Shown here piece after piece: positions 1 through 14,378 of a stretch of 64,000 nt of DNA (positions are counted from its first letter, which is position 1; each line of letters starts with the position of its first letter). Origin of the DNA: Desulfobacterales bacterium (GTDB lineage: Bacteria > Desulfobacterota > Desulfobacteria > Desulfobacterales > SpSt-501); NCBI GenBank assembly GCA_025454255.1, contig JALOOU010000045.1:1-64000 (forward strand), written 5' to 3'. Both the position numbers and the translations under genes were made by a program. The notes below the pieces were generated by a model. The model ran no database searches, had not been told where the DNA came from, and saw nothing but the letters and a program-made list of their open reading frames with translations.

Positions 1-333
1 TTGTAAAATCCTTTTTATGCCCCCCGGGTCGGCCACCCCGCTCGGCTCAATGACGATAAGGTTCGGATCAAACTCCTCACGGATTGCCTCGATGGACGAC
101 AAGAGGTCGGCCCCCATGGTGCAGCAGATGCATCCGCTGTGGATTTCCTTGACCCGCAGGCCGTATTTCTGCATGACTTTTCCATCGATTCCGATGCGTC
201 CGAAATCGTTGACCAGGATGGCGACTCTTTGCGATTGCAGACGGGACGGCCTTCCCAGGATGGTGAGGATGAGCGTCGTCTTCCCGGAGCCAAGGAACCC
301 TGAAATCAGGGCGATTTTATAACCACTAGCCAT
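1..333 (-). CDS. CobW/P47K-family metal-chaperone GTPase, N-terminal part (runs off the left edge)
   Basis: The ORF track misses this gene because it has no stop inside the window. Read from an ATG at 333 on the minus strand it gives 111 residues starting MASGYKIALISGFLGSGKTT. It carries the Walker A motif GFLGSGKTT (about residues 12-20) and the CobW-type metal motif GCICC (about residue 68), then VIEPSGVADP. An AAGGAA ribosome site precedes the ATG. The family (COG0523) consists of GTP-driven metal-insertion proteins. It lies divergent to a corrinoid methyltransferase and transporter island, so a role in metal or cobamide supply to that island is plausible but inferred. The C-terminal CobW domain is not visible. 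Confidence 0.88.
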   Translation of the reverse strand, partial: MASGYKIALISGFLGSGKTTLILTILGRPSRLQSQRVAILVNDFGRIGIDGKVMQKYGLRVKEIHSGCICCTMGADLLSSIEAIREEFDPNLIVIEPSGVADPGGIKRILQ

Positions 334-781
334 TGAAACCATTTCCTTGACGATGTCCAATGCGCAGGAGATTGAATTGGACGGCATCAGCCGCACGGCC
401 ACGCGGCGATCAGGCCGCTTCCCCCCGATCCGTCAAGCGGTGTTAGTGCAGTGTCCATCTATGAACGGCGTCTTGCGGCGTGTGGCTGGCGTTCTCGCTC
501 TTCGCAAACCTCACCGTAGCATGGAATCCGCCTGCGGTTGCGAAATCGCCGCGGCCTTGGCCGGAGCCGACGTCCACCCTTTCTGGATGGACCTTAGCAT
601 AAATCCTGCCAGAAAGGCTGAGCGGTTTTTGACCGTTCCGGAGAAACCATTCAACTCTTCAGGCGCGGGTGGGCTTCTTGGCCGCGGCCTCGGGTGGGGG
701 CATTCCTCTTATGGCCGCATCTTTGGTGCTATTTTGCGTTTCAGCCCTATATCTGGTTTGATATTGCACCAACTTGCTCGT

Positions 782-831
782 TCCAAAAACTACTTTTTGC
801 ACCGGGCATGATCCAAAAGTATGTTTTTGCA
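782..831 (+). promoter_or_regulatory. Pair of direct repeats, probable activator (UAS) sites
   Basis: Two 20-base copies of TCCAAAA-N5-TTTTTGCA lie at 782-801 and 812-831, exactly 30 bases apart (about three helical turns), so they face the same side of the DNA. They sit about 50-80 bases upstream of the sigma-54 promoter. This is the usual position for enhancer sites of AAA+ sigma-54 activators such as the one encoded at 11707. Which protein binds them is inference. Confidence 0.6.
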
Positions 832-848
832 TCAAAATTTCGATGCAA
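827..848. promoter_or_regulatory. 22-base near-perfect palindrome, candidate operator
   Basis: TTGCATC and GATGCAA arms flank an AAATTT core, and 20 of 22 bases are symmetric. The palindrome overlaps the end of the second direct repeat and lies 15 bases upstream of the -24 element. A dimeric regulator or the sigma-54 activator could bind here. No binding protein can be named from the sequence. Confidence 0.5.
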
Positions 849-862
849 CCGAAAGCCCTGCC

Positions 863-880
863 CTTGGTTCGTTATTTGCA
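863..880 (+). promoter_or_regulatory. Sigma-54 (RpoN) promoter for the ABC/DUF1638 operon
   Basis: The sequence CTTGGTTCGTTATTTGCA has GG at 866-867 and GC at 878-879 with exactly ten bases between. This is the invariant spacing of -24/-12 promoters (consensus TGGCACG-N4-TTGCW). Transcription would start near 891, leaving a leader of roughly 220 bases before the ATG at 1113. A sigma-54 activator gene lies in the same cluster. Confidence 0.72.
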
Positions 881-1112: not shown

Positions 1113-2309
1113 ATGGAAAACCAGGACAAGTTGGCGCAGTTGATCACAGATTATCAGAACGGCCGGATCAATCGCAGATCTTTTATCAAGCGGGCCGTGA
1201 TGTTGGGCCTTGCGCTCTCCAGCATCGGCACGTTTCTATCCTTCGAAAACCTTTCGGTTCCCGAGGCTATGGCTCAAGCTCCGTCCGGCAAGCCGGTCGA
1301 CCTGACCGTCGGCTTCTTCCCCAGCTGGGTCGGCGGATGGTCCGGAGTGGTCATCAAGCATCTCGACCTCTGGAAGAAACACCTCCCCCAAGGCAGCAAG
1401 GTCAGCTGGGACATTCAGGTGGTCGGCCCCCCTATTGTGGCCAACCTCATGGCCGACAAGAGCCAGATCGGTTACATGGGGGACATGCCGGCCCTCGTTG
1501 CGACAACCAAACGCGACATCGCCGACCTTCGTATTGTCGAGATCAACACTTTCTCCGAAACCGGCCAGATTTGCTCCGTAATGATGGTGCGGAGCGACGC
1601 CCCGGACTTCGCAAGCCTGGATGAGGCCGTGAAATGGCTCAAGGGCAAGAAAATCGGCGTCTCGGGCAAAGGCTCCTGCGGCGACCGGTTCGTCTCCAGC
1701 CTTCTCCGCAAGACAGGCGTCGAGGCCGAAGTCCAGTATCTCGACCCGACCATCATCAAGACGTCGCTTCAGGCCAAGAAGGTGGACGCCGCCCAGGCCT
1801 TCCAGCCGCACGTCGCCCAGATAATGAACCACGGCTTCGGCAAGATGGCCTTTTCAGGCTCCACCTGGGCCGCCCAAGATGCCAACTTCATCCTGATGCG
1901 CAAGGATTTTATCGACAAGTACCCTGAAGCGGCCAAGGGATGGATCAAGGCTGACATCGAGGCGATGCTGTACATCATAAAGAATCCTGTCGAGACGGCT
2001 GGCATGGTAGCCAAGGAGCTTCCGGGATACAGCGTCAAGGACCTTTGGATGGCGATGTACGGGCGCTACCCGGACAATACCGGCTCCAAGGAAAGCAACA
2101 CCCTGATGCAGGCAGGCTTCGACGACAAGGTGATGAGCTTCATCGAAGAGAGCTTCAAGTTCCTCCACGAGCGCAACGCCATCACCGTTGAAAAACCGCT
2201 GCCCGGGGGTATTTATACCCAGTTGGTGGAAGAAGCCTTGAAAGAGATGAATCTGAAGGCGCCGCTGGGCGTCATCAAGGGGTTGCCTCTAAGCGAGTTC
2301 AAGGGATAA
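1113..2309 (+). CDS. Tat-exported NitT/TauT-type ABC transporter substrate-binding protein (NrtA/SsuA-like)
   Basis: This 398-residue protein captures the imported compound outside the membrane. The N-terminus has a twin-arginine signal, NRRSFIKRA (about residues 20-28), followed by a hydrophobic stretch and an AMAQA-like cleavage region near residue 54. The mature part has the two-lobe NrtA/SsuA fold hallmarks VDLTVGFFPSW, GYMGDMPALVA and GKKIGVSGKGS. An AAAAGGAG site precedes the ATG. It is the first gene after the sigma-54 promoter, with a terminator-like hairpin after it, which suggests it is made in excess over the membrane parts. Family substrates include sulfonates, nitrate and aromatic acids. 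The actual ligand is unknown, although the downstream genes suggest a methylated compound. Confidence 0.9.
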   Translation: MENQDKLAQLITDYQNGRINRRSFIKRAVMLGLALSSIGTFLSFENLSVPEAMAQAPSGKPVDLTVGFFPSWVGGWSGVVIKHLDLWKKHLPQGSKVSWDIQVVGPPIVANLMADKSQIGYMGDMPALVATTKRDIADLRIVEINTFSETGQICSVMMVRSDAPDFASLDEAVKWLKGKKIGVSGKGSCGDRFVSSLLRKTGVEAEVQYLDPTIIKTSLQAKKVDAAQAFQPHVAQIMNHGFGKMAFSGSTWAAQDANFILMRKDFIDKYPEAAKGWIKADIEAMLYIIKNPVETAGMVAKELPGYSVKDLWMAMYGRYPDNTGSKESNTLMQAGFDDKVMSFIEESFKFLHERNAITVEKPLPGGIYTQLVEEALKEMNLKAPLGVIKGLPLSEFKG

Positions 2310-2313
2310 GGGC

Positions 2314-2340
2314 CGCACCGTTTAGGCTGTGCGATTTTTA
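2314..2340 (+). terminator. Hairpin plus T-run after the binding-protein gene (partial terminator)
   Basis: CGCAC (2314-2318) pairs with GTGCG (2329-2333) around a ten-base loop and is followed by ATTTTTA. The stem is only five base pairs, so it probably trims or attenuates the transcript between the binding protein and the permease and does not stop it completely. Confidence 0.45.
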
Positions 2341-2435
2341 CCACCTCCGGCAGGATAGACTGTGGCGGGAGTTTGAAAGGGCCGGACGCTCATGTGAGCT
2401 CCCGCCATGGCCGCCGGATGAAGGAGACACCCCGG

Positions 2436-3248
2436 ATGTCGACAAGTCGAAAGACCGGGCTCTTGAATCCCCAAATCATGAGGGCCTTGATAGGCATTGG
2501 CGTCTTTCTGGCTCTTTGGTATCTGCTAACGGCCGTTCTGCAACTGCCGCGTTTCAAACTGCTGCCCAACCCCTTGTCGGTCATTGCGGAATGGATCAGC
2601 TTTGAACCGGTTTCCGGAAGGTCCATATTCACCAAGGCCTTTTATCTCGACATGGGCTTCAGCATCGCAAGGACATTGATCGCTTTTTCGCTGGCGACTT
2701 TCCTGGGCGTGCTGTTGGGCCTCATTATGGGATGGAACAGGATTTTTTACGATTTCTCTTTCCCGATTGTCGAAATCCTGCGGCCCATGCCACCGCTGAG
2801 CTGGATCCCGCTTGCGGTGCTCATCCTGCCGGGGGTCGAGTTGGCGGTGGTCTACGTGACCTTCATCGCGGCTTTTTTCGCCACCGTGCTCAACACCCTC
2901 CTGGGAGTCTTTTCCATCGACAAGAATTACTTCCTGGCGGCGAGCTGCCTCGGCTCCAAACCCAAGCATATCTTCATCAACATCGTCGTCCCCGGGGCTC
3001 TGCCGTTTATCTTCACCGGCCTGCAGATTGCCATGGGCGTGTCTTGGATGTCCCTGGTTGCGGGGGAAATCATCTCCGGCCAGCAGGGGCTGGGCTATGC
3101 CATTTATGAGGGCTACTCGCTGTTCCAGTTTGATCAGGTGGTCTGTTACATGTTCACTCTGGGAATTCTGGGATACATCAGCAGCGCGGGGATAAGGGCG
3201 CTCGGCCGCCGCTTGATGGCCTGGGAATCCAGAAGGCGAGGGGCGTAG
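2436..3248 (+). CDS. ABC transporter permease 1 (NitT/TauT, SsuC-like)
   Basis: This 270-residue inner-membrane subunit has about six hydrophobic segments. It carries the cytoplasmic coupling loop typical of the family: AASCLGSKPKHIFINIVVPGALP near residues 170-190. I chose ATG 2436 because AAGGAG lies nine bases upstream; the longer ORF start adds an unrelated tail. Six bases separate it from the ATPase gene that follows. Two different permeases and two different ATPases in one operon suggest a heteromeric transporter of the 2+2 type, or two transporters sharing one binding protein. Confidence 0.9.
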   Translation: MSTSRKTGLLNPQIMRALIGIGVFLALWYLLTAVLQLPRFKLLPNPLSVIAEWISFEPVSGRSIFTKAFYLDMGFSIARTLIAFSLATFLGVLLGLIMGWNRIFYDFSFPIVEILRPMPPLSWIPLAVLILPGVELAVVYVTFIAAFFATVLNTLLGVFSIDKNYFLAASCLGSKPKHIFINIVVPGALPFIFTGLQIAMGVSWMSLVAGEIISGQQGLGYAIYEGYSLFQFDQVVCYMFTLGILGYISSAGIRALGRRLMAWESRRRGA

Positions 3249-3254
3249 GCGTAG

Positions 3255-4091
3255 ATGGCCAGCGAGACGAAAGAGCCTGGAGCGATCCGCATCAAGCACG
3301 TGAGCAAAATCTACGACCCGCAGGGCGTCCACGTCGAGGCGATGCGCGACTGCTCCTTCGACATCGCCGCCGGCGAGATGGCGATCATCGTCGGGCCGTC
3401 CGGCTGCGGCAAGACCACGTTGCTGAACGCAATTGCGGGCTTCGACGACATCACCGCGGGCGAGATCTTCCTGGACGGCGAGCTGATCTCGTCCCCCACG
3501 TATCAGATCAAGCCCAACGTCGATCGTATGGTGGTCTTTCAGAACGGGGCGCTGTTTCCGTGGAAGACCGTCATCGAGAACATCGCCTACGGTCCCATGG
3601 TCCAAGGCAGGCTGACCAAGGCTGCGGCGCGGGACAAGGCCCGGGAGATGCTCGAGTGGGTGTGCCTCAACGGCATGGAGGAAAAGTACCCGGAGGAGCT
3701 CTCCTCCGGCGTCCAGCGGCGAGTCGAAATCCTGCGGGCGCTGATCAACGAACCTCGGGTGGTCATGCTCGACGAGCCCTTCCGCGGTCTCGATGCCGTT
3801 TCGAAGACCGTGATGCATGAGTTTCTGATGCAACTTTTCTGCAACAGAAACCGCACGATGTTTTTCATCACGCACGATCTGGACGAGGCTATTTTTCTTG
3901 GCCACAAGGTCGTCATCATGACGACCCGGCCTGCGCAGGTTAAAAAGATCGTACCGATCGATTTGCCATGGCCCCGGGAGCATCGCATCATGAACTCGAA
4001 GCGCTATCTGGAATTGAAAGGTGAAATCCTCGAAGCGGTGCACGAGGAGGCCAAGAAGGCTTTCCAGGCCGGCGAACGCGAATTGGCATAA
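3255..4091 (+). CDS. ABC transporter ATPase 1 (NitT/TauT, SsuB-like) with unusual signature motif
   Basis: This 278-residue nucleotide-binding subunit has Walker A GPSGCGKTT (about residue 47), Walker B VVMLDEPF (about 172) and the switch histidine in ITHDLDEA (about 207). The C-loop is LSSGVQRR, not LSGGQ/M-QR, so one of the two signature glycines is replaced by serine. That may weaken ATP turnover at one site. It follows permease 1 by six bases and precedes permease 2. Confidence 0.9.
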   Translation: MASETKEPGAIRIKHVSKIYDPQGVHVEAMRDCSFDIAAGEMAIIVGPSGCGKTTLLNAIAGFDDITAGEIFLDGELISSPTYQIKPNVDRMVVFQNGALFPWKTVIENIAYGPMVQGRLTKAAARDKAREMLEWVCLNGMEEKYPEELSSGVQRRVEILRALINEPRVVMLDEPFRGLDAVSKTVMHEFLMQLFCNRNRTMFFITHDLDEAIFLGHKVVIMTTRPAQVKKIVPIDLPWPREHRIMNSKRYLELKGEILEAVHEEAKKAFQAGERELA

Positions 4092-4123
4092 GCTGTGTCC
4101 GAATTCAACAAGGGTCGATTGCT

Positions 4124-4951
4124 GTGTCCGAATCCTCAACGACAATGCCACCGGATGCCGTTTTGAAAACGCCCCGAGGGAAACTGCTCAAGAAGGTGTT
4201 CAGCGCCAGGACGCTGCGGGGCCTATCCTCGATTGTACTCTTCGTGGTTCTCTGGCAGCTGGTGGTCTACCTTAAGGTGCCCTATCTGCAAAACCTGCCG
4301 TACCCCGAGGACGTGGCCTCGCATGGATTGGCCGCCGCCGTCTCTACCGGCTACTGGATAGACTGGGGCTTGAGCCTTTCACGGATCTTCATCGGTTTTA
4401 TCGCGGCGCAGCTGCTCGGGATCCCCCTGGGCCTGGCCATCGGGATCAGCCGGGTCTTCCGGGGGTTCACCTTCCCGGTCTTCGAGATCCTGCGACCCAT
4501 TCCACCGATCGCCTGGATCCCGCTGGCGATCCTTTTCTGGCCGACGCGCGAGCTTTCCATCTACTTTCTGGTTTTCATCGGCGCCTTTTTCATCATTGTC
4601 ATCAACGTGATCCAAGGCGTCTCCAACATATCCGTCAATCTGAAATGGGCGGCCTTCTCGCTGGGGGCCAAACCCAATGATATTTTCTGGCGGATTTTGC
4701 TCCCGGGCTCCCTGCCCTCAATTATCACCGGAATGACCGTCGGAATGGGCGTAACCTGGAACGTGCTCATCGCGGCGGAGATGATCGCCGCCCAGGGCGG
4801 CCTTGGGCGGACCACCTGGGAGGCTTACACGAATCACAACATCCCGTACATCGTGGTCGGCATGGTCAGCATCGGCATAGCCGGCTATCTTTGCAGCACG
4901 CTGCTGCGATGGCTTGGAGAAAAAGCCATGCCATGGAAGCGCAAGTTTTAA
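4124..4951 (+). CDS. ABC transporter permease 2 (NitT/TauT, SsuC-like)
   Basis: This 275-residue six-helix permease is clearly related to permease 1 (shared EILRP-PPI-WIPLAI region and FSLGAKPNDIFWRILLPGSLP coupling loop), so the two arose by duplication or serve as partners. The predicted start is GTG at 4124; ATG 4145 in the same frame is possible. A 13-base direct repeat, GCTGTGTCCGAAT, occurs at 4092 and again across the GTG start, which looks like a small local duplication. The operon continues 17 bases downstream. Confidence 0.9.
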   Translation: MSESSTTMPPDAVLKTPRGKLLKKVFSARTLRGLSSIVLFVVLWQLVVYLKVPYLQNLPYPEDVASHGLAAAVSTGYWIDWGLSLSRIFIGFIAAQLLGIPLGLAIGISRVFRGFTFPVFEILRPIPPIAWIPLAILFWPTRELSIYFLVFIGAFFIIVINVIQGVSNISVNLKWAAFSLGAKPNDIFWRILLPGSLPSIITGMTVGMGVTWNVLIAAEMIAAQGGLGRTTWEAYTNHNIPYIVVGMVSIGIAGYLCSTLLRWLGEKAMPWKRKF

Positions 4952-4968
4952 CAGGAGGCTCGCGCTGC

Positions 4969-5859
4969 ATGAACCAGGTTCTCACCCCGGCCGCGGGGAT
5001 TACGAAAGGCAGCTTCGGGGAAGTTCGCCTCGAGAGGGTCGGCAAGATTTATGAGAAAGAAATCGAGCGGCTGGTCGCCTTGGATGAGTTCAGTCTGACG
5101 ATCGAGCGGGGAAAGCTCACCGTCCTCATGGGCCCCTCGGGCTGCGGCAAGACGGTCTTGATCAACATGATCGCCGGCTACGAACAGCCCACTTCGGGGA
5201 CGATCACCCTCGACGGCCGTCCCGTGCAGGGGCCGAGCTGCGATCGGTTGGTGGTCTTTCAGGAAAGCGCGCTTTTCCCGTGGATGAGCGTCTATTCCAA
5301 CGTCGTTTTCGGCTGCCAGGTGCAGGGCATCGACCCGGCGGAAATCCGCGCCAAGGCCGAACTCATCCTCAGAAAGGTCGGGCTCTTCGAGTTTCGGGAT
5401 AAATACCCGGCCCATCTCTCGGGCGGGATGCAGCGGCGGGCCGAACTGGCGCGGGCGCTGATCAACGACCCCAAGATCCTGATTCTGGACGAGCCCTTTC
5501 GCGGGCTTGACGCCATGACGCGCGAGCTGATGCAGGAATTCTACGTGGGGCTTTTCGAGGAATTCGGCCGGACCAATCTGTTCATCACCCATGAAATCGA
5601 CGAGGCGATCTTCCTAGCGGATAAATTGGTCATCATGACCTATCAGCCCGGGAAGGTGAAGGCGGAAATTGAAATCGACCTGCCGCGGCCACGGGATTTT
5701 AAGATGCTGGCCTCGTCGCGCTTTATGCAGATCAGGGCCCAGACGCTGGAGCTGCTCTATGAGGAGTCCTCCAAGGCTTTCGCTTCCGGAAGCAAGGCTG
5801 CCTTCGATCTGGTCGGGGCCCTGGCGAGCTCAAAGGATTCATGCCGCATTGCCGGATAG
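4969..5859 (+). CDS. ABC transporter ATPase 2 (NitT/TauT, SsuB-like)
   Basis: This 296-residue ATPase has Walker A GPSGCGKTV, signature LSGGMQRR, Walker B ILILDEPF and switch FITHEIDEA. Unlike ATPase 1 its signature is canonical, so the pair may form a heterodimer with one consensus and one degenerate site. That interpretation is inferred. I chose ATG 4969 because ACAGGAGG lies upstream; the ORF track start at 4891 lies inside the preceding gene. The C-terminus is longer than usual (KAFASGSKAAFDLVGALASS) and unrecognised. Confidence 0.9.
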   Translation: MNQVLTPAAGITKGSFGEVRLERVGKIYEKEIERLVALDEFSLTIERGKLTVLMGPSGCGKTVLINMIAGYEQPTSGTITLDGRPVQGPSCDRLVVFQESALFPWMSVYSNVVFGCQVQGIDPAEIRAKAELILRKVGLFEFRDKYPAHLSGGMQRRAELARALINDPKILILDEPFRGLDAMTRELMQEFYVGLFEEFGRTNLFITHEIDEAIFLADKLVIMTYQPGKVKAEIEIDLPRPRDFKMLASSRFMQIRAQTLELLYEESSKAFASGSKAAFDLVGALASSKDSCRIAG

Positions 5860-5987
5860 CAACGGCGGGCACCCGGCCCAACGCCCGTGCGCCTGGGGGG
5901 GGATCCCTGCCGCGGGCCCGGCTAGCGGATCCGCCCGGCGGGCGGCGCGAGAAAAAGGTAAGTCTGTCTTTTTTTCTGGGAGCCTTG

Positions 5988-6656
5988 ATGCCGCCTGACG
6001 TCCAAGTCATTGCCTGTCGTGCACTGGCCCCGGAGCTGAGGGCCTTCGGCGTCCCTCCAGAGCGGCTGCGGCTTCTAGATCAAGGGCTGCACCGTTGTCC
6101 GCAGATCCTCCGAGAGGAGCTGGCGCGAACGCTGGGGGAGGTGGAATCCCAGCCCGGTGTTTCGCGCGTGGTGCTGGTATACGGGTATTGCGGCGGAGGC
6201 CTCGAAGGGCTTGCGCCCCATAAGGCCGAGTTGGTGCTTCCAATAGTGCATGACTGCATCCCTCTGCTGCTCGGTCCTGACGGCGAACCCGGCGCGGCCG
6301 ATGCCGGAGGAACCTATTATCTCAGTCCGGGATTGATCGATTACGGCCAGACTCCCTATACGGAATTCCAGCGGATCCGGGAACGATTCGGCGATGAAGA
6401 GGCCTTATGGGCGGTAAAGGAAATGATTAAGAACTACCGTGAGGTGATTCTGATTCGAACCGCTGCCGGCCTTAAACGGTCCCACCGCCTGCATGCCCGC
6501 AGAATGGCCCACTTGCTGGGGCTCGCCTACCGGGAAGCGCCCGGCGACGGCCGCCTATTGGCAGATCTTTTAGCCGGGCGATGCCGGGAAGGGATCCTGC
6601 GCCTGAAGCCGGGCGAAGCCATGAGCGCGAGCCGTCTGAAGCGCAGCCCCGTATGA
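5988..6656 (+). CDS. DUF1638-domain protein associated with corrinoid methyltransferases
   Basis: This 222-residue soluble protein starts MPPDVQVIACRALAPEL and contains VLVYGYCGGGLEGL, VHDCIPLLLG and GGTYYLSPGLIDYG, the pattern of DUF1638. Members are usually encoded beside corrinoid-dependent methyltransferases and their transporters. Their biochemical role is not known; cysteines in YGYCGGG and HDC could bind a cofactor or metal. I chose ATG 5988 because GGGAG lies five bases upstream. It is the last gene of the first operon, directly before the methyltransferase promoter. Confidence 0.78.
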   Translation: MPPDVQVIACRALAPELRAFGVPPERLRLLDQGLHRCPQILREELARTLGEVESQPGVSRVVLVYGYCGGGLEGLAPHKAELVLPIVHDCIPLLLGPDGEPGAADAGGTYYLSPGLIDYGQTPYTEFQRIRERFGDEEALWAVKEMIKNYREVILIRTAAGLKRSHRLHARRMAHLLGLAYREAPGDGRLLADLLAGRCREGILRLKPGEAMSASRLKRSPV

Positions 6657-6779
6657 CCATAGCGTCTCGCTCAGCCGAGACCGCCGCGGACTGTCGGTTT
6701 TCTTTTATCGAGTAAAATTTAGCCGCACTGGGGTTACTGATGTTTTCGAAAAAGTAGTGATCCGGGGCGGTGTAAAGTT

Positions 6780-6804
6780 GCACCGGCGGAGATGAATCCG
6801 GTGC
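6780..6804. promoter_or_regulatory. Seven-base-pair hairpin in the 334-base gap before the methyltransferase operon
   Basis: GCACCGG pairs perfectly with CCGGTGC around an 11-base loop. No T-run follows, so it is a weak terminator candidate for the upstream operon or an operator. The gap 6657-6990 also contains AAAAAGTAGT (6749-6758), the reverse complement of ACTACTTTTT in the first activator repeat at 782. In addition, a GAATCGA/TCGATTC hairpin near 6887-6904 lies just before the sigma-54 promoter. Confidence 0.35.
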
Positions 6805-6913
6805 GGAATCGAATCGGCGCCGGAAGGCCATGTGAAGAATACGCTTAAACAAAACTATTTGATATTCAAAACAATAACGATAGATCGAATCGATTTCTCG
6901 ATTCAACTCGACT

Positions 6914-6930
6914 CTGGTGCAGAGCTTGCA
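6914..6930 (+). promoter_or_regulatory. Sigma-54 (RpoN) promoter for the corrinoid methyltransferase operon
   Basis: CTGGTGCAGAGCTTGCA has GG at 6916-6917 and GC at 6928-6929 with ten bases between, and an intact TTGCA -12 element. The start site would be near 6941, about 50 bases before the ATG at 6991. Its agreement with the promoter at 863 points to joint control of uptake and demethylation genes. Confidence 0.72.
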
Positions 6931-6990
6931 ATACCTTTCTGACCTGGAATCGAACGTGGAACGCCAAGCGAAGCAAAGAGGAGAGCGGCA

Positions 6991-8049
6991 ATGAATCAAA
7001 TAGGTCGAGACCAAATCAGGCTGCAGGTCGGTTTTTATCCCGACTGGTTTTACAAGCACTACGGCATCTCCTTCGACAAACGGTACTACTTCGATCCGGA
7101 AACCCGCGTGGAAGCGCGCTTGGCCATCGACAAGGCACTTTATGAGCGTTTCGGCGACGTCGGTCTCGGCAGCGCTAAGCCAGTGCCCACTCCCACCATT
7201 ACGGCCGGGATGATCACGCTGCCGGCAGTCTTCGGCTGCGAGATCGTCTATGAAAACGAGGCGATTCCCTGGGCGATGCCCCTCAATCTCTCCGATGAGG
7301 CGGTGATGAAGCTTGAAGTCCCCGACATCTTGAATTCCTGGCCGATGACCGAATGGATCAAGCAGATCGAATACCTGAAGTCGAAGTACGGGAGGGTGGT
7401 CGGAGACATCAACACCACCGGCGTGCAGAATCTCGCGCTCAAGCTTCGCGGGGATCAGCTCTACATTGACTATTTCGAAAACCCGGATCTCTGCCGCCAT
7501 CTGCTCGAGGTCTGCACGGAAAGCGTCCGGCAGATGTTCGAGTTCAACTTCAAGGCGACTGGCACGGGCTCGGTGGACGTCACCCCCATGGCCGATCCGA
7601 AGCTGGCGACATTGGTCAACTGCACGATCGAGCAGATTTCAAACAATACCTACGAAGAATTCCTGCTCGAGTACGACAACCGGATAGCAGACGCATTTCA
7701 GCATGTCGGCTTGGGGGTTCACCACTGCGGCTCCGTCGACCAGGTGCTGCCCGGATACGCGAAGTTGCGGCATCTCAAGTTCGTCGAGGTCGGTTTCGGC
7801 TCGGACGTCCGGAACTGCCGTGACGTTCTCGGGCCCGATGTGGCCGTCAACGCGCGCATCAGTCCGGTCTTGATGAAGAACGGGTCCGCCGGGGAGGTTG
7901 AGGCCGAGGTCAAGCGGCTGATCCGCGACGGAGCGCCGCTCGATAGTTTCTCGATCGACGCGGTGGGGCTGACCTATGGAACCCCGGATGAAAATGTGAA
8001 GATCGCCCGGCGCACGGCAGCCGAATTCGGAAAGATTGGAACGAACTGA
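6991..8049 (+). CDS. Uroporphyrinogen-decarboxylase-like corrinoid methyltransferase (MtvB/MtaA type)
   Basis: This 352-residue protein has the UroD TIM-barrel fold used by methyltransferases that move a methyl group between a substrate and a corrinoid protein. HHCGSVD near residue 244 supplies the His-x-Cys zinc site of this family. GAGGAG lies seven bases before the ATG. It is first in an operon with a methyl-THF methyltransferase, a corrinoid protein and an activator. This is the B-A-C-activator layout of O-demethylase systems such as vanillate Mtv/Odm, so it is probably the substrate-side methyltransferase. A methoxylated aromatic is one candidate substrate; other methyl donors cannot be excluded. 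It shares one base with the next gene. Confidence 0.85.
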   Translation: MNQIGRDQIRLQVGFYPDWFYKHYGISFDKRYYFDPETRVEARLAIDKALYERFGDVGLGSAKPVPTPTITAGMITLPAVFGCEIVYENEAIPWAMPLNLSDEAVMKLEVPDILNSWPMTEWIKQIEYLKSKYGRVVGDINTTGVQNLALKLRGDQLYIDYFENPDLCRHLLEVCTESVRQMFEFNFKATGTGSVDVTPMADPKLATLVNCTIEQISNNTYEEFLLEYDNRIADAFQHVGLGVHHCGSVDQVLPGYAKLRHLKFVEVGFGSDVRNCRDVLGPDVAVNARISPVLMKNGSAGEVEAEVKRLIRDGAPLDSFSIDAVGLTYGTPDENVKIARRTAAEFGKIGTN

Positions 8050-8903
8050 TGGAAACCATACTTCAACGCAACACATGCACGGTGACTATCGGGCCGCAAC
8101 ACCCACTTGTCATCATCGGCGAGAGGATCAATCCGACTGGCCGGAAGAAGCTCGCTTGCGCCCTGGAAAAGGGCGAGCTCGACCTCGTGAGGGATGAAGC
8201 CGTTAAACAGGTGGCGGCAGGAGCGCACGTGCTGGACGTCAATGTGGGCGTTTCGGGCATTGACGAGCCCGGCCTACTCAGAGATGCCGTGAAGGTCGTC
8301 TGCGCCGCGGTCGCGGTCCCACTGTGCATCGATTCGGCCCTGCCGAGCGCGCTCGCGGCCGGGCTGAGCGTCTATGAAGGCAAGGCCCTGGTGAACTCCG
8401 TGAACGGAGAGGAGCGCAAGCTCAAGGAGGTGCTGCCGATCGTCAAGCACTACGGCGCCGCGGTCGTGGGGTTGACCATGGACGATGACGGCATCCCCCG
8501 GGATGCCGGTCGGCGCCTGGCCATAGCGGAAAAAATCGTGAACGCCGCCCAAAAAGAGGGCATCCCGATCGAGGACGTCATCATCGATCCCCTGGCGATG
8601 GCCGTCAGCACGGATTCCATGGCGGCGGTGGAAACCCTCAAAGCCATATCGCGGGTGCGCGAGAAGTTGGGCGTCAACCAGACGCTGGGTGCGAGCAACA
8701 TCTCTTTCGGCCTTCCGGAACGGCATGCGGTCAACGCGCTCTTCACCGCGCTGGCGGTTGCCAACGGCGTCACCTGCCCCATCCTGGATCCCACGGTTTG
8801 GGATATCCGGCGCGCAGCGCTGTTGACTGATCTGCTGCTGGGCAAGGACGAGTGGTGCATGAATTTCATCAGCGTGTACCGGGAGAAATTTCCTTTGGAC
8901 TGA
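8049..8903 (+). CDS. Methyltetrahydrofolate:corrinoid methyltransferase (MtvA/AcsE/MtgA-like, pterin-binding)
   Basis: This 284-residue pterin-binding TIM barrel is of the DHPS/MeTr family. Markers are VIIGERINPTGRKK (about residues 18-31), VLDVNVGVSGIDE, PLCIDSALPSALAAGL, VNSVNGEE and DPLAMAVSTD. It would transfer the methyl group from the methylated corrinoid protein to tetrahydrofolate, feeding the Wood-Ljungdahl pathway, or run in reverse. Its ATG overlaps the TGA of the UroD-like gene by one base, so translation is coupled. The length fits the family (about 260-290). Confidence 0.88.
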   Translation: METILQRNTCTVTIGPQHPLVIIGERINPTGRKKLACALEKGELDLVRDEAVKQVAAGAHVLDVNVGVSGIDEPGLLRDAVKVVCAAVAVPLCIDSALPSALAAGLSVYEGKALVNSVNGEERKLKEVLPIVKHYGAAVVGLTMDDDGIPRDAGRRLAIAEKIVNAAQKEGIPIEDVIIDPLAMAVSTDSMAAVETLKAISRVREKLGVNQTLGASNISFGLPERHAVNALFTALAVANGVTCPILDPTVWDIRRAALLTDLLLGKDEWCMNFISVYREKFPLD

Positions 8904-8935
8904 TGATCGATCCCTTTTCGGAAAGGAGTTGGAAC

Positions 8936-9580
8936 TTGGTGAATCTCGATGCCCTTACAGAAGCCGTGGTCAAAGGCAAGCGCAAGGACGCCGTCGAATT
9001 GACACAGCAGGCCATACGGGATGGTCATGATCCCGAAAAGATCATCAACACCTACCTGATCCCCGGCCTCAACAGGGTCGGGGAAAGGTTCCAAAAACGG
9101 GAGATCTTCGTCCCGGAGATGATGATATCGGCAAAGACGATGCAGGCCTGCGTCGAATTGCTGAAGCCGCTCATCGCTAAAGACACCGCGCCCGCGCTGG
9201 GTGTGATCGTCATCGGAACCGTTTTCGGCGATCTGCACGACATCGGCAAGAACCTGGTCAAGCTGCTCCTGGAGAGCTCCGGCTTCAAGGTGGTGGATCT
9301 AGGGGAAAACGTGCCGTCCCAAAAATTCGTTGAGGCGGCGCGGCTTCACGACGCGTCGGTCGTGGGCCTCTCCTCGCTGCTGACGACAGGGGATCCCTAC
9401 GTCGAGGAGACGGTCAAGGCCATCAAGGCGAGCGATGTCGGCGCCAAGGTAAGGATCATCTGCGGCGGAGCGGCGCTCACCCCGAAATTCGTCGAAGGCC
9501 AATGCGGAGCCGACGCCTATGCCAAGGATGCCGCGGACGGTGTCAATAAAATCAAGAAACTGCTGGAGATCGCCGTCTGA
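8936..9580 (+). CDS. Methyltransferase cognate corrinoid protein (MtvC/MtbC/MttC-like)
   Basis: This protein of about 214 residues has a helical cap (NLDALTEAVVKGKRKDAVELTQQAI) and a B12-binding Rossmann domain. DLHDIGKN near residue 100 carries the histidine that ligates cobalt, with GLSSLLTT and GGAALT completing the cobamide tail pocket. The start is either TTG 8936 (seven bases after AGGAG, preferred) or GTG 8939; the ATG at 8852 in the ORF track lies inside the upstream gene. It carries the methyl group between the two methyltransferases encoded immediately upstream. Confidence 0.9.
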   Translation: MVNLDALTEAVVKGKRKDAVELTQQAIRDGHDPEKIINTYLIPGLNRVGERFQKREIFVPEMMISAKTMQACVELLKPLIAKDTAPALGVIVIGTVFGDLHDIGKNLVKLLLESSGFKVVDLGENVPSQKFVEAARLHDASVVGLSSLLTTGDPYVEETVKAIKASDVGAKVRIICGGAALTPKFVEGQCGADAYAKDAADGVNKIKKLLEIAV

Positions 9581-9643
9581 ACCGGCTGTTTTTGAAGGTC
9601 TACATGGCCTTAGCCGCTGGCATGATGGGACCACCTCGCTGAT

Positions 9644-11509
9644 GTGAAGCAGGTTATGGTACACTTTCCGGAAACGGGCCGCCAGGAAACTGCGCGAGAA
9701 GGGGAAACGCTGCTCGATCTGGCCCGGCGGATATACCTGCCGATCTCCTCCGTATGCGGAGGCCAAGGCCGATGCGGCAAATGCCGGATCATCGTGGAGC
9801 AGGCGGAACCCGGCCTGCCGCCCCCAACGGAAAAAGAAGGTCGGCTCCTGGGGGATCTCATCCATAAAGGCTATCGGCTCGCCTGCGAAACCCCCGCTTC
9901 CGGCGCATCGGAGGTGCGTTTCCCCCTCGCCAGCCGGCATCATGGCCATGTAATTTTGACCGCACCTGCGGCACTCTCCGCCGCGCTGAAGCCGCGGCCC
10001 AACCTGGAAGCTTACGAGGTAATCGTTCCGGAACCCGTTCTGGCACCGCCTGTGGCCGATCGCGAGCGGCTGCTCCAGGCGCTCGGGAATGTCCTGGCGC
10101 TCAAGTCCCGCCGCCTTCAGGCCGATCCGTCGGTTCTGCGGCGGCTGCCGCACGTGCTGCGGTCCGCCAACCACCATGTGACAGTAGTGATCCGCAACCG
10201 GCGCGAAATCGTGGACGCGCGCCCGGGCGGCCGGCAGCGTCTTTACGGCATCGCCTTCGACGTCGGGACGACGACGGTGGTCGGGTATCTGCTCGACCTG
10301 CAAAGCGGAGAGACGCTGGCCGTCAGGTCCGCGCTTAACCCCCAGGCCGCCTACGGGGCCGACGTCATCAGCCGGATCACCCACAGTATGAAGCAGGCGG
10401 CCGGCCTTGTCCAGCTCCAGGCGGCGGTTGTGGATTGCCTAAATAGGATTACCGCGGTTGCCAGCTCGGATGCCGGAATCGCTCCGGACGACATCGTCGA
10501 GGCTTGCGCCGTAGGTAATACCGCCATGCACCATTTTCTCTTCGGCCTGGACCCGCGTTATTTGGCGGCGGCCCCTTACCCGGCGGCGCTTCAGCGCGGT
10601 CAGGAGTTCCGTGCGCGCGATTTCGGCCTCAATATCTGCCCTGCCGGCTATATCTACCTGCCCCCTTTGAAAGCCGGTTTCGTCGGCAGCGATGCCATCG
10701 CCTGCGTCGTCGCCACACGCATGCACCATAGCCGGCTGCCGACCCTTCTTGTCGACCTCGGAACCAACGGAGAGATTGTTTACGGCAACCGAGAGAAAAT
10801 GGCCTGCTGCTCGACGGCGGCCGGCCCTGCGTTCGAGGGCGGCCATATTCGATGGGGCATGCGGGCCGCGAACGGGGCGATCGAGCGCCTCCGTCTATCG
10901 CCCGGCAGCCTCGAGGTGGAGGCCGTCACGATTGGGGGGCAGCGTCCCGTGGGAATATGCGGCTCAGGGCTGATCTCTGCAGCGGCGGAGCTAATCCGGT
11001 ATGGGGTCTTGCTGCAGACGGGAAGTTTCAACCCAAAGCTGCAGCATCCTCGTCTTCGTCGCGGCCGAGATGGGTGGGAATTCGTCCTGGCCTGGGAGCC
11101 GGAGACCGATGTCGGCGAGGACGTCGTCATGACCCAGAAGGATGTCTCCGAATTGATCATGGCCAAGGCAGCCATCCACGCGGGCGCTTCGCTGCTGATC
11201 GAGCAGCTGGGGATCGGATCTCCCGCGCGGATCCTCATGGCCGGTGCCGGCGGCAATTACATCGCGCCCCAGGATGCCGCAGCCATCGGGCTTCTTCCGG
11301 GCTGCGGGCAAGAGAGGCTCCAGGGCGTGGGGAATGCGGCAGGTTATGGCGCCTGCATGATGCTCCTCAACTCGTCCATGCGCGGGACGGCGGAACGGAT
11401 TTCTCGAAGGATCGATTACCTCGAATTGGCCGCCGAAAAGCGCTTCCAGGAGCTCTTCGTATCCGGGATGTTTTTTCCATCCGCCTCCGACTATGGCAAC
11501 GAATTCTGA
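9644..11509 (+). CDS. Reductive activator of corrinoid enzymes (RACE; RamA-type, [2Fe-2S] + DUF4445/ASKHA)
   Basis: This 621-residue protein re-reduces inactive Co(II) corrinoid to Co(I) in an ATP-dependent step. The N-terminal ferredoxin domain has SVCGGQGRCGKC near residue 40 and CETP further on, giving four cysteines for a [2Fe-2S] cluster. A linker and a large actin-like ATPase domain follow (IAFDVGTTTVVGYLLDL, LVDLGTNGEIV, MAGAGGNYI). The C-terminal methanogen RamA ferredoxin repeats are absent, as in bacterial RACE proteins. GTG 9644 or ATG 9656 could be the start. It is the last gene of the methyltransferase operon. Confidence 0.92.
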   Translation: MKQVMVHFPETGRQETAREGETLLDLARRIYLPISSVCGGQGRCGKCRIIVEQAEPGLPPPTEKEGRLLGDLIHKGYRLACETPASGASEVRFPLASRHHGHVILTAPAALSAALKPRPNLEAYEVIVPEPVLAPPVADRERLLQALGNVLALKSRRLQADPSVLRRLPHVLRSANHHVTVVIRNRREIVDARPGGRQRLYGIAFDVGTTTVVGYLLDLQSGETLAVRSALNPQAAYGADVISRITHSMKQAAGLVQLQAAVVDCLNRITAVASSDAGIAPDDIVEACAVGNTAMHHFLFGLDPRYLAAAPYPAALQRGQEFRARDFGLNICPAGYIYLPPLKAGFVGSDAIACVVATRMHHSRLPTLLVDLGTNGEIVYGNREKMACCSTAAGPAFEGGHIRWGMRAANGAIERLRLSPGSLEVEAVTIGGQRPVGICGSGLISAAAELIRYGVLLQTGSFNPKLQHPRLRRGRDGWEFVLAWEPETDVGEDVVMTQKDVSELIMAKAAIHAGASLLIEQLGIGSPARILMAGAGGNYIAPQDAAAIGLLPGCGQERLQGVGNAAGYGACMMLLNSSMRGTAERISRRIDYLELAAEKRFQELFVSGMFFPSASDYGNEF

Positions 11510-11612
11510 TTTAGCCGCCGAAATAGGCCGGTGCACAGCTCTCCGCCTGCCCCTTTATTAATCGCGCTGCGGTTGGTATTCTATCCGGGCGCGGCCTCAT
11601 TGTCCTTACAGG

Positions 11613-11649
11613 GTCATTCCGGCGGGTTCCGGATCAAGTCCGGCATGAC
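11613..11649. repeat. Intergenic inverted repeat (GTCATTCCGG ... CCGGCATGAC)
   Basis: Ten-base arms with one mismatch flank a 17-base centre that contains CCGGATCAAGTCCGG. It sits in the 197-base gap before the activator gene and resembles short palindromic repeats scattered in many proteobacterial genomes. No T-run follows. Confidence 0.5.
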
Positions 11650-11706
11650 GGGACTATTTCCAGGCAGTTTATAGGGCGACTTACTCCCCCATCCAGGAAG
11701 GCACCT

Positions 11707-13455
11707 ATGCCACGATCGGACACCCTTACACAAGAACTGATCTCGGCTGCGGTTGACGCAGGCCCTTGCGGAATGGTCATCAGCGACGCCGATGGCTTCA
11801 TCGTATTTGCGAACCGAAAAGCGGAAGAGCTGCTCTCGGCGAGGCACGGGGGGCTCATCGGACAGAGTGTCAACACCCAGATCACCTTTTTCTCACCCAC
11901 CAAGGAGCAGCCCCACGTTTATCATGCCCCCGCCCACGTGCTGGGAAAGGGGGTCGTGCTCTTCCGCAACCCGCTGGAGGTCAAGGAGCAACCGAGAGGC
12001 GAGTTGTGGCTGCTGTTCGAGGAGAGCTTCATCCTCCCGCTCAAGGCCTCCTGCACCCCGGAGGTCGATCAAACCATCGAGTCGCTCATCGAGGGCTTCT
12101 ACGACGGGATCGTGCTGGTGGAAAAAGATCGTATCATTCGCGTCAACAGCAGCTTTGCCCGCATCACCGGCATCAAGGAGGACGCGATGCTGGGGATCAA
12201 GGTTGGGGAGTTGGATGGCGCAAACCACATCTGTCTTCACACCATCCAGGAAGTCGTGCGGCTCGCCCAGCAGATGCGCAAAAGTGTAACGAGCATGGGC
12301 AAGCTGAGGCATGGAAACGAAATCTACGTTACGGCAACCCCGGTGCAGCCGCGAGCCGATATCGGGTATATCATGGTCAATGTCCGAGACGTCACGGAGC
12401 TTCAGCTTCTCAAGGAGGAGGTGTCGCGGCTGCTAGCGCTTTACCTCTCCACTCCGCAGGAGGTGCGCATCAGCCAAATCACCGGGCAGGAGATCGTGAC
12501 TGAAAACCGCGTCATGCGCGGGATCCTGGATCTGGTCGCCAGGCTGGCCCAGGTCGACTCCACGGTGTTATTCGAAGGGGAGAGCGGTACCGGCAAAGAA
12601 GTTCTGGCCCGGCTCACGCATCGATTGAGTTCGCGAAGAAAAGGTCCCTTCATTTCCGTCAACTGCGGCGCCATCCCGGAGACCCTTTTCGAATCCGAGC
12701 TCTTCGGCTATGCCAAAGGGGCGTTTACCGGTGCGGTAAACGACGGAAAGCCGGGGTTTTTCGAGTTGGCGGACGACGGCGTGCTGTTTCTGGACGAAGT
12801 GAGCGAGATCCCTCTCAACTGCCAGGTCAAGCTGCTGAAGGTAATCGAAAACCTCGAGGTCATGCGGGTCGGCGGGGTGAAGACCACGCAGTTCAACGTG
12901 CGCGTCATCGCCGCCACAAACAAGAGCCTGCCCAAGATGGTCAAAGAAGGCACGTTCCGCGAAGACCTCTATTATCGGCTGTACGTCGTGCCCATCAAAA
13001 TACCCCCGCTGCGCGAGCGAAGGGAAGATATCTTCTCCCTGGCGTGGCACTTTCTGAGGGTATGCAACCAGAAATTCAAGCAGTCCAAGCGGTTTTCCAA
13101 GGAAATCATCCAGGCGATGGAGACGTATGACTGGCCTGGGAATGTGCGTGAGCTCCAGAACGTCATCGAACGGTTGACGCTAACCACGGATGATGAACTC
13201 CTCAGACCCGAGCATCTGCCCTTGAGCATATTCCAGGAGCCGCCGGGCGAAAATGCCATGTTGAAAATCAACGGCTTCCTGCCTTTGGAGAGAGCCCGCG
13301 AGGCGGTGGAAAGGCAACTTATCGTCCAAGCGCTCTCGCTTCGAGGGACTACCCGCGAAGCTGCCCGTTTGCTTGGGGTGAACCATTCGACCGTAGTGCG
13401 GAAAGTCAAACGTTACGGGATAAAGGTCCGGGAAGGATTTCCGGGGAAGTCCTGA
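11707..13455 (+). CDS. PAS-domain sigma-54-dependent transcriptional activator (NtrC/TyrR-type enhancer-binding protein)
   Basis: This 582-residue regulator has two N-terminal PAS-like sensory domains (about 1-110 and 125-240), an AAA+ core and a C-terminal helix-turn-helix. The core has GESGTGKE (about residue 291), GYAKGAFTGA (about 336), the loop that contacts sigma-54, and Walker B GVLFLDEVSE. The HTH is GTTREAARLLGVNHSTVVRKV near residue 556. There is no receiver domain, so it probably senses a small molecule or redox state directly. It lies right after the methyltransferase operon, and the two sigma-54 promoters in this cluster are the obvious targets. Confidence 0.93.
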   Translation: MPRSDTLTQELISAAVDAGPCGMVISDADGFIVFANRKAEELLSARHGGLIGQSVNTQITFFSPTKEQPHVYHAPAHVLGKGVVLFRNPLEVKEQPRGELWLLFEESFILPLKASCTPEVDQTIESLIEGFYDGIVLVEKDRIIRVNSSFARITGIKEDAMLGIKVGELDGANHICLHTIQEVVRLAQQMRKSVTSMGKLRHGNEIYVTATPVQPRADIGYIMVNVRDVTELQLLKEEVSRLLALYLSTPQEVRISQITGQEIVTENRVMRGILDLVARLAQVDSTVLFEGESGTGKEVLARLTHRLSSRRKGPFISVNCGAIPETLFESELFGYAKGAFTGAVNDGKPGFFELADDGVLFLDEVSEIPLNCQVKLLKVIENLEVMRVGGVKTTQFNVRVIAATNKSLPKMVKEGTFREDLYYRLYVVPIKIPPLRERREDIFSLAWHFLRVCNQKFKQSKRFSKEIIQAMETYDWPGNVRELQNVIERLTLTTDDELLRPEHLPLSIFQEPPGENAMLKINGFLPLERAREAVERQLIVQALSLRGTTREAARLLGVNHSTVVRKVKRYGIKVREGFPGKS

Positions 13456-13562
13456 CAGACGAGGCCTCCCTACCGGATTGGGCGCCTGCAGGGGAGATAT
13501 CCGTATCGCTGAAATACCCGGAAGATGGCCGGGAAAAGTCTTAGCTGCCACAAGAGACATGT

Positions 13563-14378
13563 ATGAGCGATATTCTTTATGCCAGTGCTGTCATTGCCTG
13601 CGCCTCGTTTTCGCAATCGGTGTCCGGGGTGGGCTTCGCCATGGTGGCCACGCCGTTTCTATTGACGATCATGAACGTTAAAGACGCCGTGTTGATCGGG
13701 TTCAGTATGGCATGGCTGAGTCAGATAGTTATCGTCTATCGGCACCGGAGTGCGATCCACCCCCAGATGTGCTTCAATTTCGTTTTCGGCAGTGCCGTGG
13801 GCGCCCCGTTTGGTCTATGGATCTTCTCCGCATCCAGCTTCGACTCGCTGAAATTGATCGTTTGCGTTGCGCTGTTTTCCATCGCCCTTTATTCGCTCTG
13901 CACGATATGCCGGAACTGGCGCACCATCGACCGCACCGTTTCCTATCGGTTACTCCAACAAGAGGCCTCTACGCTCTGGGATATAAAGGAGTTCCTGCGG
14001 TGGGGCCGTTCCGGGCGCGTCCAGCTGATCGTCGGAAGCATCGCCGGTTTTTTCGGAGCGAGCATCGGGATGCCCGGAATTCCGTTAACGGTATATTTCA
14101 ACACGCTCAATGTCGAAAAAGACGTCGCCCGAAGCACCTCCCTTGCTTTCTTCATCGTTCTCCTGGGAGCCACACTCGCCATGAACTGGTGGGTGGGAAC
14201 AATCAGCCCGCGCGTGCTGGCGATGGCGCCATGGCTCATTCCTGCGGTCCTCATCGGGATGGTAGTCGGAAACTTGGTTTTCCCGCATATCCCGCAACGC
14301 TGGTTCCAATTGACCTTGAACATGATTCTGCTCTATTCGGGATGCAAAATATTCGTCGACTATCTTGGAATGCCGTAA
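13563..14378 (+). CDS. TauE/SafE-family membrane permease
   Basis: This 271-residue polytopic protein has about eight hydrophobic segments. The repeated TauE motif appears as SQSVSGVGFAMVATPFLL near residue 18 and again as FFGASIGMPGIPLTVYF near residue 165. Family members export sulfite, sulfonates or other small organic anions and are typically 240-300 residues. It follows the activator gene by 107 bases and could export the demethylated product or a counter-anion. That role is inferred from position alone. Confidence 0.85.
   Translation: MSDILYASAVIACASFSQSVSGVGFAMVATPFLLTIMNVKDAVLIGFSMAWLSQIVIVYRHRSAIHPQMCFNFVFGSAVGAPFGLWIFSASSFDSLKLIVCVALFSIALYSLCTICRNWRTIDRTVSYRLLQQEASTLWDIKEFLRWGRSGRVQLIVGSIAGFFGASIGMPGIPLTVYFNTLNVEKDVARSTSLAFFIVLLGATLAMNWWVGTISPRVLAMAPWLIPAVLIGMVVGNLVFPHIPQRWFQLTLNMILLYSGCKIFVDYLGMP

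Follow-up and report, generated by a model that had tools for sequence, protein, structure and literature searches.

Which bases does the putative activator of this methyltransferase gene cluster recognise, and how far does its control region extend? In the window, the whole 64,000-nucleotide stretch analysed here and the start of contig C5, the genes at 1113-14378 all lie on one strand and a CobW-type gene diverges from them (Table 1). The initial annotation had placed a complete sigma-54 control region at 782-880 and had proposed TCCAAAA-N5-TTTTTGCA as the binding motif of the PAS activator encoded at 11707-13455. The two repeats 30 bases apart, the 22-base palindrome and the promoter that it described are all present at the positions it gave. 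With a probability of about 0.82, however, we read 723-880 as the sigma-54 control region of a gene cluster for the uptake and demethylation of a methyl compound, whose activator would bind TTGGTGC-N6-GCACCAA, act by looping and serve a second promoter as well.

Table 1. Coordinates of genes, putative activator sites and promoters in the 64,000-nucleotide window
Feature	Position	Strand	Sequence, domains and remarks
CobW-family GTPase	1-402	-	PF02492; cut by contig end, likely start 333
Possible divergent sigma-54 promoter toward CobW-type gene	596-612	-	CTGGCAGGATTTATGCT; tied 4th-8th of ~128,000
Distal dyad	723-742		TTGGTGC-TATTTT-GCGTTTC; left half-site perfect (723-732, rank 5 of 127,982), right half degenerate
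Main dyad	753-772		CTGGTTT-GATATT-GCACCAA; top-scoring match of the window, 17.5 bits (E 0.04)
Repeat A	782-801	+	TCCAAAAACTACTTTTTGCA; its TTTTTGCA runs into half-site 796-805, TTTGCACCGG
Five A/T tracts	785-840		Centres 787, 796, 816.5, 826, 837; spaced by roughly one helical turn or multiples of it
Repeat B	812-831	+	TCCAAAAGTATGTTTTTGCA; its TTTTTGCA runs into half-site 826-835, TTTGCATCAA
22-bp palindrome	827-848		TTGCATCAAAATTTCGATGCAA; 10 of 11 pairs match
-24/-12 promoter of transporter operon	864-880	+	TTGGTTCGTTATTTGCA; TTGGTTCG-TTAT-TTGCA
ABC transporter substrate-binding protein, SsuA/TauA-like	1113-2309	+	PF13379; below NCBIfam cut-offs
Two permeases and two ATPases	2436-3248, 3255-4091, 4124-4951, 4969-5859	+	PF00528 in 2436-3248, PF00005 in 3255-4091; other two by sequence and conserved order in relatives
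DUF1638 protein	5841-6656	+	PF07796; start uncertain
Second-region dyad 1	6767-6786		GCGGTGT-AAAGTT-GCACCGG; second among single matches of the window, 14.0 bits
Second-region dyad 2	6798-6817		CCGGTGC-GGAATC-GAATCGG; 31 bp from 6767-6786
Candidate -24/-12 promoter	6914-6930	+	CTGGTGCAGAGCTTGCA; ~60 bp before methyltransferase gene
UroD-superfamily methyltransferase, MtaA/CmuA-like	6991-8049	+	PF01208; TIGR01463 below cut-off
Methyltetrahydrofolate:corrinoid methyltransferase	8049-8903	+	PF00809; NF005719 above cut-off
Corrinoid protein	8852-9580	+	PF02607, PF02310
RACo-type corrinoid activase	9644-11509	+	PF14574, PF17651
Sigma-54 activator	11707-13455	+	PF00158, PF13188, PF18024; PAS, AAA+, Fis/TyrR-type HTH
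TauE/SafE-family permease	13563-14378	+	PF01925

By its domains, a sigma-54 interaction AAA+ domain (PF00158, 8e-66) and a C-terminal HTH (PF18024, 1.2e-11), the protein encoded at 11707-13455 qualifies as a bacterial enhancer-binding protein. Its HTH is conserved in relatives and gave weak matches only against the PDB, among them TyrR, Fis and NtrC. PrdR was the best NCBIfam model for the whole protein, and its identification as PrdR was rejected at a score of 376 bits against an equivalog cut-off of 795. The gene cluster has a UroD-superfamily methyltransferase in common with the type 1 mlp clusters and with the UroD-type O-demethylases OdmB/VdmB named in the same paper (PMC10418091); like it, type 1 mlp clusters further encode a corrinoid protein together with a reductive activase. 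A type 1 mlp cluster has two or more Mlp proteins and lacks a tetrahydrofolate methylase nearby (PMC10418091), and assignment to this type was rejected, given the single UroD-family gene and the folate methyltransferase at 8049-8903. In Phaeobacter, DUF1638 and RamA-like proteins are paired in B12 reactivation (PMC5764234). A PDB search with the UroD protein gave no informative match for a substrate. Enoyl-CoA hydratase genes adjoin the UroD cassette in L036, L039, L056 and other cassette loci, and in L039 an AMP-binding ligase gene does so as well; these neighbours may point to the substrate.

The UroD protein, used as query against genome contigs, yielded 21 loci, and activator searches added further ones. 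In five relatives (L081, L082, L083, L085 and L087), the same transporter genes and DUF1638 are oriented divergently to the UroD gene and the activator gene adjoins them, and both operons diverge around one site pair that lies 128-133 bp from the transporter promoter, which is of the TTGGCATG type and stands at the place matching that in the window. The intergenic regions have TTGGTGC and GCACCAA in common, and the conserved site is a 20-bp dyad, TTGGTGC-N6-GCACCAA, which occurs as a pair, at a spacing of 29-31 bp, ahead of sigma-54 promoters. In an unbiased 7-mer count over the upstream regions of 11 relatives, with the window excluded, GCACCAA ranked first (19 observed versus 1.24 expected; seven of nine groups).

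A matrix was built from relatives only, with leave-out versions omitting each locus and its near kin. With the leave-out matrices, the intergenic pair was the best 29-31-bp pair in all nine activator-bearing training loci (27-44 bits), and outside the training set L039 and L056 scored 28.6 and 34.6 bits, respectively. Apart from L039, no cassette locus lacking such an activator in its vicinity, and no locus of a more distant activator, exceeded 11.4; the maximum was 5.9 among 29 loci belonging to this genome's other activators. The L039 contig showed no activator gene; a search of the L039 genome retrieved the closest activator found (69% identical), whose gene directly follows the RACo gene, the same arrangement as in the window. 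Resemblance to the window helped to draw attention to the motif, so the matrix was not chosen entirely blindly. The 7-mer count and the left-out loci were blind and, like the L039 prediction, protect against circular reasoning. The computed co-occurrence of homologous activators with these paired and regularly spaced sites, at nine matrix loci and two independent ones, bears out the earlier choice of the 11707-13455 protein as the cognate activator. The conserved dyads precede the promoters of genes beside that of the activator and on that ground count as putative upstream activator sequences.

The relatives also showed variations on this arrangement. The high-scoring pair in L056 (912-962) does not adjoin the methyltransferase gene of that locus and lies near CoA-transferase genes, a possible further target. 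Two pairs in L036 (14045-14093 and 14201-14249) lie between a TRAP transporter operon and a divergent methyltransferase cassette, which couples this type of activator to another transporter. In L084 (8462-8481) and L086 (11328-11347), one conserved site immediately precedes the activator gene and suggests autoregulation. Same-genus genomes yielded neither a transporter ortholog (E 1e-60) nor an activator (1e-110).

In the window, the two top-scoring pairs sit in the two operon upstream regions, the best at 6767-6786/6798-6817 (20.9 bits) and the second-best, with its members 30 bp apart, at 723-742/753-772 (20.2 bits). The next unrelated pair in the window reached 8.1 bits, and the best of 100 shuffles 14.5. 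Half-site 763-772 ranked first of 127,982 positions with the relatives' matrix, and half-sites 796-805 and 826-835 ranked seventh and eighth; together with 723-732, four of the eight best half-sites of the window thus fall within 723-835. The first promoter-proximal half-site follows the main half-site at 33 bp and the second comes 30 bp later; neither has a second half. In this genome the strict paired pattern matches at 6767 only, and around the other single motif matches the best pair scored 13.1 bits (L095). The region at 782-880 was therefore drawn too narrowly to be complete: it extends upstream to 723, with its best pair at 723-772, and a putative second sigma-54 control region at 6767-6930, before the methyltransferase genes at 6991, had been missed.

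The promoter at 864-880 has GG at 866-867 and GC at 878-879, ten bases apart (GG-N10-GC), and is the third-best sigma-54 match among ~128,000 positions by our own consensus score. The candidate at 6914-6930 is weak, with a score of 0.785 that is equalled or beaten at 32 positions in 64 kb and a -24 part that resembles and overlaps a half-site. We tentatively read 596-612 on the minus strand as a divergent sigma-54 promoter; the relatives, too, place their sites between divergent promoters. Half-site ACTGCACTAA at 443-452, also on the minus strand, ranks sixth in the window, and with 596-612 it raises the possibility that the region drives divergent transcription.

What, then, are the repeats and the palindrome? 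Repeats A and B are identical at 15 of 20 positions, and each is a near-palindrome by itself, TSCAAAA-N6-TTTTGSA. Neither the repeats nor the palindrome is striking alone, because the 64 kb contain 66 cases of two direct 20-mers that agree at 15 or more of 20 positions and lie within 60 bp of each other, and six 22-bp palindromes with at least 10 of 11 pairs matching. Each repeat runs into a strong single half-site, and the palindrome looks like half-site 826-835 (+) set back to back with a weaker one at 840-849 (-), which ranks 165th in the half-site scan of the window. These half-sites support the idea of a sigma-54 control region with phased activator sites. The proposed motif survives in its TTTTTGCA(CC/TC) end, which belongs to the conserved dyad as a half-site, and fails in TCCAAAA, which is not conserved in the scanned relatives; as a conserved motif, TCCAAAA-N5-TTTTTGCA was ruled out. 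The activator might still bind the repeats as whole 20-bp dyads and use them as its main sites, given that each has the 7-6-7 geometry of Fis/TyrR-type sites and that the perfect form is found only here in the genome. We regard this as very improbable: the whole 20-mers score -30.2 (A) and -32.3 bits (B) in the relatives' matrix, occur in none of the 12 scanned activator or cassette loci, relatives with a homologous activator included, and another dyad of the same geometry is the conserved one. The genome search that had been suggested for the repeat motif returned, at zero mismatches of TSCAAAA-N6-TTTTGSA, only the two known copies in the 4.1-Mb assembly, and matches with up to two mismatches were not commoner there than those of a reversed control; a genome-wide regulon of the repeat motif was rejected accordingly. 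The half-site scores and the 723-772 pair thus indicate that the repeats are phased activator elements, and that their relevant bases and the extent of the control region had been misread.

The same stretch is also predicted to be bent. The 63 bp from 789 have the highest predicted curvature of the 63,937 63-bp segments in the window, a value reached by 12 of 2000 dinucleotide shuffles in a wedge model and by 9 of 2000 in an AA-only version, which agrees on the top segment. The peak lies between the main sites and the promoter and, by prediction only, would make this an intrinsically bent sigma-54 promoter, in which the phased A/T tracts of the repeats would help looping. Excess curvature was likewise predicted on the methyltransferase side in L081, L082, L087 and L053 and not in other relatives; L083 and the window's own methyltransferase side had none. 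The repeats could accordingly be a bend and nothing else, their half-site likeness being accidental, and a precedent exists in the K. pneumoniae nifLA promoter, where A/T-tract curvature takes the place of IHF (Cheema 1999, as cited in PMC3897727). We hold this to be unlikely, since the half-sites rank seventh and eighth of 127,982 and keep a 33- and 30-bp register with the main half-site. Binding of the repeats and palindrome by another regulator, either a repressor or a bending protein (IHF, for example), that modulates the promoter is a poorer prospect still. The elements occupy the usual place for such proteins, between main sites and promoter, and D. vulgaris sigma-54 promoters without intrinsic bends need IHF (PMC3897727). 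However, 773-863 contains no IHF-like site within one mismatch of WATCARNNNNTTR, the repeats harbour strong activator half-sites, and the activator is the only regulator identified among the neighbouring genes.

For the sigma-54 switch that we favour, we infer activator binding, looping, signal and promoter use as follows. RNA polymerase with sigma-54 would wait at 864-880, while the activator would bind the TTGGTGC-N6-GCACCAA sites through its C-terminal Fis/TyrR-type HTH, at the main pair and aided by the single half-sites inside the repeats. On sensing a signal through its PAS part, presumably the substrate, the activator would assemble, loop to the polymerase across the DNA bent by the phased A/T tracts, and open the promoter by ATP hydrolysis. 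The second promoter near 6914 would be driven by the same activator from 6767-6786 and 6798-6817, and import and demethylation would therefore rise together.

A sigma-54 switch is a known kind of system, and the new part would be the activator motif. The NtrC enhancer is a dyad of TGCACC and GGTGCA half-sites; the dyad here has the half-site letters GCACC/GGTGC in common with it but in the opposite order (GGTGC first) and at another spacing. Closer in geometry is the PrdR group of Fis-type sites, TGT-N10-12-ACA (PMC6615313), with which the present dyad shares the 18-bp layout (outer bases TGG-N12-CCA) and multiple sites per target operon, whereas the inner bases (TGC/GCA) and the target genes differ. 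Several sites at one target operon are usual for sigma-54 activators (PMC6615313). In the D. vulgaris orp system with its activator DVU2106 (PMC3897727), as in the relatives, the sites lie between two divergent sigma-54 promoters, but orp uses IHF without an A/T-rich bend and its genes are unrelated. The order of activator sites, intrinsic bend and -24/-12 promoter is also that of nifLA as cited in PMC3897727; nifLA has NtrC sites and differs in activator, site and genes, and the bend here also carries activator half-sites.

No TTGGTGC-N6-GCACCAA site or regulon was described in the literature that we searched, and this argues weakly for novelty; a search with the letters of the site retrieved unrelated work. 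As a tentative extension, the half-sites in the bent linker may be composite, the same bases shaping the loop and recruiting further subunits of the activator, with the repeats thereby tuning the response, and TTGGTGC-N6-GCACCAA may define an activator family, so far undescribed, that serves corrinoid methyltransferase clusters of the UroD type. The dyad, paired at 29-31 bp, offers an experimentally usable site for this uncharacterised family and ties it to such clusters, and through it the hidden orthologous activator in the L039 genome was predicted. A reporter built on 700-900 could help find the substrate of the cluster.
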